Positions 34,961-38,289 of a DNA stretch of 41,634 nucleotides are shown one piece after another; position 1 is the stretch's first letter, and every line of letters begins with the position of its first letter. The DNA is from a virus. The stretch spans positions 1 to 41,634 of the IMG/VR virus record IMGVR_UViG_3300010885_021922. One strand, written 5' to 3'. The translations under genes and the position numbers were made by a program. Below the pieces are notes generated by a model that was not told the DNA's origin, did no database searches, and saw only the letters and a list, made by a program, of their open reading frames with translations.

Positions 34961-35836
34961 ATGTCAGCTTATTACAACGAGATAGACCCTTATGCTGTTC
35001 AGTGGATGAGGAACCTAATCACAGAAGGCTTGATTGCCAAAGGAATCGTGGATGATAGGTCAATATCAGATGTCAAACCTTCCGAGTTGGCTGGTTTCAT
35101 CCAATGTCACTTCTTCGCAGGTATCGGAGGCTGGAGCCACGCTCTCAGACTCGCAGGATGGGGTGATGACAGACCAGTGTGGACAGGATCATGCCCTTGT
35201 CAACCTTTCAGCACGGCAGGCAAAGGAGCAGGAACTACTGACGAGCGGCACCTATGGCCGCATTGGTTCCATCTTATACGGGCAGTCAGACCTCAAGTTG
35301 TCTTTGGTGAACAGGTTGAAGCAGCGATTAACCACGGGTGGCTCGACCTTGTTCAAGATGACCTGGAAGGAGAAGGTTACGCCTTCGCTCCAGTCGGTCT
35401 ACCTGCTGCGTGCGTCGGGGCACCGCACATCAGACAGCGACTCTGGTTCGTGGCCGACTCCAGATTGTCACAACAGCAGAGATGGGACGAATCTCAGGAA
35501 GGACTGCAACATAGGAGAGGGGATGCACGGGGTGAGCCTACATCATGCTGTTCACCTCTTGGCGCAGATGGCATCTTGGCCGACAACAACAACACGGGAT
35601 TGGAAAGACGGCAGTCAGTGCGACAACGTACCACTGAACAGTCTCCTTGGCAGGACGGTCTGGTTAACTGGCTCCCCTGTCGCGATGGAAAAGCAAGGCC
35701 AGTTGAACCCGGCACATTCCCGCTGGCTCATGGGATACCCAATCGAGTGGGACGCTTGCGCGCCTATGGTAACGCGATTGTCCCGCAAGTCGCTGCTGAA
35801 GTGATTAGAGCCTACATGGAGTGTCAACCCAAATGA
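34961..35836 (+). CDS. C5 cytosine-specific DNA methyltransferase
   Basis: A 291-residue phage cytosine methyltransferase. Motif I FAGIGG at 52-57 (AdoMet binding), motif IV GSCPCQPFS with catalytic Cys80, an EQV in place of the usual ENV of motif VI (Glu117), RQRLWFVA as motif VIII, and YGNAIVPQVAAE as motifs IX/X near the C-terminus. It would methylate phage DNA and protect it from host restriction. The region between motifs VIII and X (about 165-255) is a poorly structured Arg/Gln/Ser-rich stretch that coincides with the strongest part of an overlapping reading frame. Ribosome site AGAGAG; the stop overlaps the next ATG (ATGA). Confidence 0.9.
   Translation: MSAYYNEIDPYAVQWMRNLITEGLIAKGIVDDRSISDVKPSELAGFIQCHFFAGIGGWSHALRLAGWGDDRPVWTGSCPCQPFSTAGKGAGTTDERHLWPHWFHLIRAVRPQVVFGEQVEAAINHGWLDLVQDDLEGEGYAFAPVGLPAACVGAPHIRQRLWFVADSRLSQQQRWDESQEGLQHRRGDARGEPTSCCSPLGADGILADNNNTGLERRQSVRQRTTEQSPWQDGLVNWLPCRDGKARPVEPGTFPLAHGIPNRVGRLRAYGNAIVPQVAAEVIRAYMECQPK
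35034..35804 (+). CDS. overlapping +1-frame ORF inside the methyltransferase gene (dual coding)
   Basis: A 256-residue ORF wholly inside the methyltransferase gene in the +1 frame. It does not look like a random shadow: it has protein-like segments that I recall from many phage and prophage ORFs overlapping similar methyltransferases, namely LVNLSARQAKEQELLTSGTYG, GSTLFKMTWKEKVTPS, SWPTPDCHNSRDG, SWPTTTTRDWKDG and a C-terminal NPAHSRWLMGYPIEWDACAP. The repeated WPT...D.KDG units and the WLMGYPxEWDxCAP end are the hallmarks. No strong ribosome site was found, so translation might use coupling or frameshifting. Function unknown. Confidence 0.5.
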   Translation: MPKESWMIGQYQMSNLPSWLVSSNVTSSQVSEAGATLSDSQDGVMTDQCGQDHALVNLSARQAKEQELLTSGTYGRIGSILYGQSDLKLSLVNRLKQRLTTGGSTLFKMTWKEKVTPSLQSVYLLRASGHRTSDSDSGSWPTPDCHNSRDGTNLRKDCNIGEGMHGVSLHHAVHLLAQMASWPTTTTRDWKDGSQCDNVPLNSLLGRTVWLTGSPVAMEKQGQLNPAHSRWLMGYPIEWDACAPMVTRLSRKSLLK

Positions 35837-38289
35837 ACACCGTCCCAATCATGCAACACCCATCCTCAATTGACGCATACATCAGACACGGATGGAGCCT
35901 GATTCCGATTCCACCGGGAACGAAGGGACCGACAACGGTAGGGTGGAATCTCAAAGGAAACGCAGTCAAGATCTCGGACGATCTACCGTATGGTTCAGGC
36001 ATCGGGCTGGCCCATGCATACAGTGGCACGATGGCGTTTGACATTGATCATTGGGACAACACCCTTGAGATACTACGTCAGCGAGGGATCGACCTTCAGA
36101 TTCTGTATGACGCCCCCGATGCGGTGATCATCGACTCTGGCAGACCGGGTCACGGCAAACTGTTGTACTCGATGCCTTTTGGTCTGGTTCTACCAACCAA
36201 GAAGAAAGTCGACCAGCACATTACAGCATTTGAGTTGCGTTGCGGTACTGCAGGGGGACTTACGGTTCAGGATGTACTGCCACCGTCAATCCACCCCATC
36301 ACCAATCAACCTTATCGGTGGGCCGGTCTTGGCAATTGGCAACGACCACCAACCATCCCTCAACCCCTGCTCGATCTGTGGCATGAGATGCTGGCGCAAA
36401 ATGATGCCCCATCATCCACCGGGGTGACCCCCTCTGAGCCACTTGATTGGGACGAGATCACATCGGCAGTGAATGCAGTAGATCCGGACTGCTCGAGAGA
36501 TGAGTGGATCACCATAGGCATGGCACTGCACACCACAGGGGAACCGGGATTCAAGGTATGGAGGGAGTGGTCAGTCAAGGGAACCAAGTTTCCAGGGGAG
36601 CGCGAGATCGTCAAGCAGTGGACAAGCTTCGATTCGGGCAAAGCGACCACGGTCAAGATGGGCAGCTTGTTCCACATAGCCAAGCAGCATGGATGGTCCA
36701 AACCACCCATTGATGTGACCGGACTCTTCCCATCGAATGTGATCACCCCAGAGCAGCTACTGGCGGGACTTCACGCACCTATCCCCAACATCGACCTTAC
36801 CCTGTTCCCCAAGGTGCTGGCGCACCACGCCCACCAAGTGAGTGAGCAAATAGGGTGTGACCCCTTGGTGCCACTTTTTTCCGGCCTTGCAGCGGTGTGC
36901 GGGGTGATCGACGCACGCATCAGACTCGAGTTGATGAATGGTTACAGGGTGCCTCCTGTGTTATGGTTAATGACCATCGGTGCGCCGGCCGACAAGAAGA
37001 CACCGGGTGCGAAGCCAATGATGCACACCCTTGGCGACCTTGAGCGAGAAGACATGCCCGCATACGCCAAGGCACTCAAAGATTGGGAATATGCCGAAGT
37101 GACATACGGTGCAGCCGATAAATCAAACGTCGAACTGCTCAAGAGTGCCGACTATGCAGCGGGGGTTACACCTCTGAACACTCTGCCACCTAAGCCAATC
37201 AAGCCCGTCCCCCTTCGCATCACTGTATCGGACATCACTTCTCAAAAGCTGGTCTATCACGTAGCGGAACGCCCTCGGGGTGTGCTGTGTCACCTCGACG
37301 AGATGAGTTCGTGGATACGCAAGATGGCAGACTCATCGTCAGGTGATGATAGAGCCACCTGGACACAAAGCTACGAGGCAAACGACTACATCGCAGACCG
37401 GGTAGGGACCGGGTCGACTACTTGCATCAATTTCGCAGTCAGCATATATGGAAACGTGCAACCCAAAGTACTTGAAAAGAACATCACATCATTGACCGGT
37501 GACGGGTTGCTGCAACGCTTTTTGTTTGCTAATCTGAGAGGGTCGTACACCAAATTAGGTGAGCCTGACATGCCCTGCGGATCTGAGGCGTGGGATAACT
37601 TGCTGCGCCTCACTCACGCACTGCCTCAGAGAATCTACACGATGAGTGACGGAGCCTACCGGGTATATCGTGAATTTCAGCGATGGTATGAGGGTGCAAA
37701 GCGCGACGAGCGACTGACGATGGCGGCAGATGATTACATGACAGCATTTGGCAAGCTCGAGGGCACTGCGGGCCGATTGTGTCTATTGTTTCATGTCATG
37801 GAGTCCCCATTCGACCCCCAAGTGTCGATTGATGTGGTGCAAAGAGTTGTGAAGCTCGTTAAGACGTACCTGATACCGTCCTTCCGGTTCACTCTTGGTG
37901 AAGTGGGCGGTATCGACACCTTAAGCTCTTTCCTATCTGACCTTGTCATCCAGTACTCGGATCAGTCTGTAATAAGCCTACGCGACATCAAACGATCAGC
38001 CAAGCGTCGATTTGAGAAAATGAATACCCAGGTAGTCACCGACATCGTTATTGCAGCAATGGTCGAAATGGAGGTCGCCGGGTGGGTGATTAGGACTGAT
38101 GACCTGACGAAAGAAAAACAAGGATATGCGACGTGGGCTATTAACCCGATCCTGGTCACAATCTTTGCGAGTCACCGCAAGTCAGTGATTGATGCAAAGA
38201 TGCGGATTAAAGAACAGATCATCAGTAGAACAGGATCCGAAAAAAAGCCCCATGTGCATGGGGCTAATGACCTGCAGGGAATGTTCTAG
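35833..38289 (+). CDS. primase-polymerase / DUF3987 helicase-like protein
   Basis: An 818-residue replication initiator-type protein. Residues about 5-170: Prim-Pol domain with the catalytic D-x-D as MAFDIDHWD and the HGKLLYS motif. Residues about 203-285: PriCT-2 type domain (ITSAVNAVDPDCSRDEWITIGMALH, VWREWSVKGTKF, GSLFHIAKQHGW). Residues about 318-750: DUF3987 helicase-like ATPase, with GAPADKKTPGAKP where a Walker A loop is expected (Lys in place of the second Gly) and GVLCHLDEMSSW as Walker B. It would make primers and unwind DNA for the phage polymerase. ATG 35833 overlaps the methyltransferase stop (ATGA) and is preferred over GTG 35821. The 3' end contains a terminator for the opposite strand. 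Confidence 0.85.
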   Translation: MNTVPIMQHPSSIDAYIRHGWSLIPIPPGTKGPTTVGWNLKGNAVKISDDLPYGSGIGLAHAYSGTMAFDIDHWDNTLEILRQRGIDLQILYDAPDAVIIDSGRPGHGKLLYSMPFGLVLPTKKKVDQHITAFELRCGTAGGLTVQDVLPPSIHPITNQPYRWAGLGNWQRPPTIPQPLLDLWHEMLAQNDAPSSTGVTPSEPLDWDEITSAVNAVDPDCSRDEWITIGMALHTTGEPGFKVWREWSVKGTKFPGEREIVKQWTSFDSGKATTVKMGSLFHIAKQHGWSKPPIDVTGLFPSNVITPEQLLAGLHAPIPNIDLTLFPKVLAHHAHQVSEQIGCDPLVPLFSGLAAVCGVIDARIRLELMNGYRVPPVLWLMTIGAPADKKTPGAKPMMHTLGDLEREDMPAYAKALKDWEYAEVTYGAADKSNVELLKSADYAAGVTPLNTLPPKPIKPVPLRITVSDITSQKLVYHVAERPRGVLCHLDEMSSWIRKMADSSSGDDRATWTQSYEANDYIADRVGTGSTTCINFAVSIYGNVQPKVLEKNITSLTGDGLLQRFLFANLRGSYTKLGEPDMPCGSEAWDNLLRLTHALPQRIYTMSDGAYRVYREFQRWYEGAKRDERLTMAADDYMTAFGKLEGTAGRLCLLFHVMESPFDPQVSIDVVQRVVKLVKTYLIPSFRFTLGEVGGIDTLSSFLSDLVIQYSDQSVISLRDIKRSAKRRFEKMNTQVVTDIVIAAMVEMEVAGWVIRTDDLTKEKQGYATWAINPILVTIFASHRKSVIDAKMRIKEQIISRTGSEKKPHVHGANDLQGMF
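38240..38265 (-). terminator. intrinsic terminator of the leftward early operon
   Basis: A perfect 9-bp stem (AGCCCCATG at 38246-38254, CATGGGGCT at 38257-38265) is followed on the minus strand by a run of six or seven T. It stops leftward transcripts that leave the HTH regulator gene at 38298. The element lies inside the coding end of the rightward primase gene, where it encodes KKPHVHGAN. Confidence 0.85.

Follow-up and report, generated by a model that had tools for sequence, protein, structure and literature searches.

A phage C5-cytosine DNA methyltransferase gene with a second conserved gene, the probable recognition subunit, inside its catalytic subunit

The locus and its catalytic polypeptide

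The window, the whole stretch of DNA analysed here, comprises 41,634 bases and is a virus record of IMG/VR. On its plus strand, at 34961–35836, lies a gene of 291 aa, here called alpha, that matches the catalytic polypeptide of C5-cytosine DNA methyltransferases (C5-MTases; PF00145, E 4.6e-16; phrog_363, E 1.8e-84). A leftward replication and recombination block (exonuclease, Gp2.5-like SSB, DNA polymerase, helicase) is found 5' of alpha, and the ATG of a primase/helicase gene on the plus strand (35833–38289; phrog_1156, E 2e-28; phrog_2373, E 3e-21) overlaps the alpha stop as ATGA. Inside alpha, the +1 frame contains an overlapping gene, beta, at 35070–35804 on the same strand (244 aa; phrog_1008, E 1.5e-28), which we propose to be a subunit carrying the recognition region and motif IX.

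Alpha has the features of PF00145, namely motifs I, IV (PCQ), VI, VIII, and X on a Rossmann-like fold. The sequence-only reading had credited the methyltransferase with all catalytic motifs, which was right for II, III, I, IV, VI, VIII, and X but not for motif IX, a pattern that is absent from alpha's own frame and present in the +1 frame. The motifs follow the order II-III-I-IV instead of the classical I-II-III-IV: motifs II and III (YYNEIDPYAVQW ... DDRSISDV, 34964–35095, located by hhalign to classical-order MTases) lie 5' of motif I (HFFAGIGGWSHALRLAG, 35102–35152, a weak profile match to M.HhaI residues 3–32). Profile and motif comparisons placed motifs IV (GSCPCQPFS), VI (GEQV), and VIII (GAPHIRQRLWFVAD) at 35183–35464, and motif X (LRAYGNAIVPQVA) follows at 35756–35794, where it aligns to the MTase of Mycobacterium phage Zerg and its LR..GNA is invariant in 42–43 homologues. 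Residues 2–45 of alpha align to motifs II–III of classical-order MTases (hhalign, alignment A4 against A5), a collinear alignment in which motif I is skipped, and structure comparison places residue 1 near M.HhaI residue 34. Over motifs II–VIII alpha aligns to single-chain enzymes of the type found in Mycobacterium phage prophiGD91-2; it keeps motif X and has nothing for motif IX. The predicted structure (pLDDT 75) is a good model of a C5-MTase catalytic domain, with a VIA Z of 16.3 to M.HhaI and an rmsd of 2.2 over 169 residues; its low-confidence stretches are 184–227 and 253–270, the latter just before motif X.

The II-III-I-IV order of the alpha family is an internal swap and not a circular permutation. 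A REBASE survey recorded no natural permutation of C5-MTases outside the variable region, using motif X before motif I as its criterion (PMC5944983), and for this reason an II-III-I-IV order would be undetectable by that survey. We found no description of this order among natural C5-MTases in the literature searched, and the swapped order adds a natural topology.

Conservation of the +1 frame

The +1 frame of alpha is open for 256 codons, from a TTG at 35034 to a stop at 35804, just as the sequence-only reading had described. We compared this run with 2000 shuffles in which synonymous codons were swapped within alpha, preserving the protein and its codon counts: shuffled genes had a mean run of 113 and a maximum of 253 (p=0.0005), and the +2 frame was unremarkable in the same shuffles (50 aa, p=0.60). 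The +1 run was long in 45/45 dereplicated homologues and reached p<=0.01 in 31 of the 45, with a median p of 0.73 for +2. The earlier reading had proposed looking for +1 stop codons in homologues, and these proved rare: 59 of 61 complete alpha genes, fetched by alpha alone with beta not used for selection, have no +1 stop between codon 60 and the end of motif IX (LNP...WLMGYP). Identity in the +1 frame was higher in real than in shuffled sequences in all 990 of 990 homologue pairs (0.399 vs 0.257), an excess that partly reflects shared ancestry and general synonymous constraint, since +2 identity also rises to 0.351.

Selection on the two frames was assessed by position-specific rates, shuffles, and start-codon usage rather than by a phylogenetic codon model. 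Among homologue pairs with 50–85% identical alpha, the difference at alpha's fourfold sites was about 0.69–0.72 upstream of beta, 0.28–0.35 in most bins under motifs VI–VIII, 0.27–0.30 across the recognition region, and 0.091 under codons 248–262, which correspond to motif IX (bootstrap 0.062–0.132), returning to 0.64 past the beta stop. Both flanks thus serve as within-gene controls; pair counts are non-independent, and the main contrast is robust to this given those controls and the bootstrap over sequences. Synonymous variation in the methyltransferase frame, a second check that had been suggested, is therefore strongly reduced and not normal. Across the recognition region and motif IX, alpha position 1, which is the beta wobble position, varies most and exceeds position 3, a signature of +1 coding. 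Between motifs VIII and X, frame 0 position 3 (+1 position 2) differed at 0.416 vs 0.535 and 0.482 at positions 1 and 2, which bears out the idea that the +1 frame carries the constraint in this segment. Substitutions in close pairs, just four in number, included 5 changes altering both frames vs 22.9 expected and 0 stops in +1 vs 2.2 expected. The first ~35 residues of beta are weakly conserved.

Start signals for beta were also conserved within alpha codons. The alpha codons GAT GTN create a +1 ATG, which in the window is the ATG at 35070, and GAT was used for the Asp of the alpha motif 'I.DV' in 33 of the 40 homologues having that Asp vs 412/1097 elsewhere (p=1.5e-8). The Arg four codons before that Asp was AGG in 17/45 homologues vs 105/1310 other Arg codons (p=7e-8); in the window it is Arg33, whose codon at 35057–35059 forms an SD-like AGG 10 nt 5' of ATG 35070. 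A second start in the window is plausible at the ATG at 35052–35054, which has the SD AAAGGA at 35039–35044 and would give a product of 250 aa, although it is less conserved, with GAT at this first Asp in 21/45 homologues, near background Asp usage. The TTG at 35034, where the 256-codon frame opens, is unsupported and unlikely as the beta start; the most conserved start is ATG 35070.

Because the ATG and the AGG are selected inside alpha codons, separate initiation is favored over a programmed frameshift that would yield a single chain running from the N-terminal part of alpha into the recognition region and motif IX of the +1 frame. Single-chain forms of the enzyme do exist, and in one locus described below (L035) a frame change has naturally fused alpha to beta, but a frameshift is an unlikely account of the gene in the window: constraint on beta already shows under motifs VI–VIII, well before the recognition region, and one shift would drop motif X.

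It is not unusual for a GC-rich gene to have a long +1 ORF, and some homologues, taken singly, gave only p 0.05–0.09 for the +1 run, so we considered whether base composition or repeats could leave the frame open with no product. Such a chance ORF is highly improbable against the consistency over 45 homologues, the null result of the +2 control, the strongly reduced third-position variation, and the selection on start signals. The +1 frame of alpha is a real second gene, beta. The original impression that both frames read as real proteins was well founded: this is a genuine conserved overlapping gene with purifying selection on each frame, as seen in fourfold sites, shuffles, and homologues.

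Beta as the probable recognition half of the enzyme

The C-terminal half of beta resembles the part of a C5-MTase that follows motif VIII. Residues 127–231 align to the recognition region after motif VIII and to motif IX of single-chain C5-MTases (hhalign E 1.1e-8), and this part is exactly the part that alpha is without. In the window the variable recognition region, with its WPTP/WPTT...D.KDG units, spans 35448–35702 on the plus strand by hhalign to single-chain C5-MTases, and motif IX, LNPAHSRWLMGYPIEW, spans 35703–35750, where the fourfold-site difference is low. This motif matches LAPAFSEWMMGWPAGW of the prophiGD91-2 MTase (pairwise BLASTP E 2e-4) and resembles the C5-MTase motif IX whose counterpart in E. 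coli Dcm is RRLTPRECARLMGFE. Hhalign also finds similarity (4.8e-19) between the N-terminal part of beta and the beta-like ORFs that distant MTases carry; we do not count it as proof, since the overlapping alpha sequences are themselves homologous and could produce it.

We detected no Pfam or NCBIfam match to beta, and a PDB sequence search with beta or a beta profile returned nothing meaningful. The model of beta alone had a pLDDT of 57.5 and was of poor quality outside a hairpin and the helices of motif IX; Foldseek and VIA-align gave only weak, unrelated matches to it, searches that are uninformative because model confidence is low. A low-confidence fold for beta alone would be expected if beta folds on alpha.

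The sequence-only reading had suggested that the second frame could be an overprinted gene whose function is unknown, with a partner in anti-restriction as one possibility. The overlap is genuine and conserved, but beta did not simply arise by de novo overprinting, since a methyltransferase domain has been displaced into its C-terminal half; that half's homology with the recognition region and motif IX speaks against the function proposed. A separate function for beta more generally, as an anti-restriction protein, regulator, or toxin and not a subunit, would fit with its being under selection and having no Pfam match. We regard this as improbable, since the C-terminal half of beta is homologous to the very C5-MTase part missing in alpha and since the two genes occur together: when genomes were scanned with the beta motif, 80 loci were kept, and alpha overlaps in the same relative frame in 80/80. 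Alpha looks broken in 4 of these 80 beta-selected bacterial loci. Out-of-frame ORFs in phage methylase genes have been documented (PMC11855218), which raises the question of a hidden homing endonuclease insertion like the ShiLan-type out-of-frame HNH elements. This is very hard to reconcile with the absence of HNH or other nuclease domains by Pfam in 40 beta members, with the presence of beta in nearly all relatives rather than as a disjunct insertion, and with its overlap with core catalytic motifs.

Very probably, this one stretch of DNA specifies a C5-cytosine DNA methyltransferase of two polypeptides, with the recognition subunit, beta, encoded inside the catalytic subunit, alpha; the two are most likely halves of a single DNA-methylating enzyme. 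Frame 0 would give alpha, responsible for SAM binding and catalysis through motifs I–VIII and X, and the internal ATG at 35070 behind the SD-like AGG would allow beta to be translated in +1. Beta would then supply what an ordinary C5-MTase has between motifs VIII and X, the variable DNA-recognition region and motif IX. The two polypeptides may associate into one active, sequence-specific heterodimer that would methylate the phage DNA, probably protecting it against host restriction.

Distribution and comparison with known systems

Beta was detected by tblastn in 218 phage records, covering at least 80% of its length in 203. Within the family of a Citrobacter reference, 32 of 392 genomes have beta. 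The split arrangement occurs in phages, prophages, or plasmids of Pseudomonadota, Actinomycetota, Bacillota, and Cyanobacteria. Distant C5-MTases without an in-frame motif IX (Mycobacterium phage Zerg, Vibrio phage 1.091.O, Stenotrophomonas phage SBP5phi2, Paenibacillus phage Gryphonian, a Lacticaseibacillus plasmid, and the enterobacterial locus L316) contain a long +1 ORF that closes with an IX-like motif (p 0.001–0.008 for those tested). Two MTases with motif IX in frame, Dcm (p 0.80) and that of prophiGD91-2 (p 0.45), show no excess +1 ORF. The split is not uniform, because in Gordonia phage Baddon and a small number of others motif IX stays in frame 0 while the PTP units lie in +1.

Several variant arrangements were also observed. 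A second, classical-order class of C5-MTase has a beta-like +1 ORF and an IX-like motif (L316 reverse complement 831–1647; L196, L198, L200, L201, L202), and a form with PTP units in +1 and motif IX in frame 0 (L197, L213, L214, L216, L220) is possibly an intermediate step between the split and single-chain forms. At L035:1265–2467 one ORF joins the N-terminal part of alpha to the beta recognition region and motif IX, with motif X in another frame. In L004, L107, L151, and L168 alpha is 443–478 aa and extends about 500 nt past the beta stop, which suggests an extra C-terminal segment. In E. coli ECCTRSRTH03 (L283:1489–2658) PGAP splits alpha into two incomplete pieces, though the frame is intact and beta is open.

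We favor, with rather less assurance than the reading of the locus itself, a broader view in which a recognition half in the +1 frame of the catalytic half is a widespread and ancient phage C5-MTase architecture, possibly arising through the recognition domain sliding into the other frame, with the II-III-I-IV order in the alpha family. We also considered that paired indels could have produced the split; the direction could be either a split from a single chain or a fusion from split forms.

Most phage records with the overlap annotate only one of the two proteins, and the second ORF is annotated only occasionally, as 'Mte8-like' in Escherichia phage K1G, where both genes are annotated, and as 'not called by any program' in Gryphonian. 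Many phage and prophage 'DNA methyltransferase' genes appear to be annotated as one protein while encoding two complementary ones, and cloning or synonymous recoding of alpha alone would therefore be expected to give a dead or specificity-less enzyme. The locus offers a clear case of a long overlap in which the function of the partner can be read from homology and not guessed, as well as a testable claim on how two enzyme halves share the same DNA.

The closest family matches, phrog_363 for alpha and phrog_1008 for beta, are direct and both labelled 'DNA methyltransferase', but these labels are silent on shared DNA or complementary motifs. In the single-chain type (the prophiGD91-2 MTase, L199, L204–L207, L210, L212, and L218) the catalytic motifs are the same and are followed by a recognition region with PTP, by motif IX, and by motif X; this type differs in using one frame and one chain, and its prophiGD91-2 member has no excess +1 ORF. 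M.AquI is a C5-MTase naturally split into two polypeptides (PMC3404938) and in this resembles the phage alpha and beta. Its small subunit comprises the distal recognition region, motif IX, and motif X, whereas in the phage motif X stays in alpha and beta lies wholly inside alpha.

M.EcoHK31I requires both of its polypeptides for methylation and has YGGCCR specificity, and M.EaeI is the same kind of system. Lee et al. (1995) reportedly described the beta of M.EcoHK31I as encoded within its alpha in an alternative frame; the phage beta also lies inside alpha in another frame. In M.EcoHK31I, whose MTase record a 2018 STEC paper gives as X82231, the large subunit has motifs I–VIII and X and motif IX is on the small one (PMC3404938), a division that the coding capacity of the phage locus matches when the two are compared by description. 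Since M.EcoHK31I has motif IX on a small, internally encoded polypeptide, the split principle is already known. A Klebsiella aerogenes plasmid match considered as an EaeI system was set aside as prophage-like, the gene being matched only in pieces. We found no paper calling the overlapping split general in phages in the literature searched, which lay outside most subscription journals and REBASE. The phage system may differ from M.EcoHK31I in the placement of the recognition region, which aligns to beta in the phage, whereas the target recognition domain of M.EcoHK31I was predicted, in the published account, to lie in the large subunit. It also differs in having motifs II–III before I in alpha, and in being phage-borne with no endonuclease gene recognised alongside. 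Set apart from M.EcoHK31I are the probable recognition region in beta, the unusual motif order, and the very wide spread of the arrangement in phages, including distant C5-MTases.
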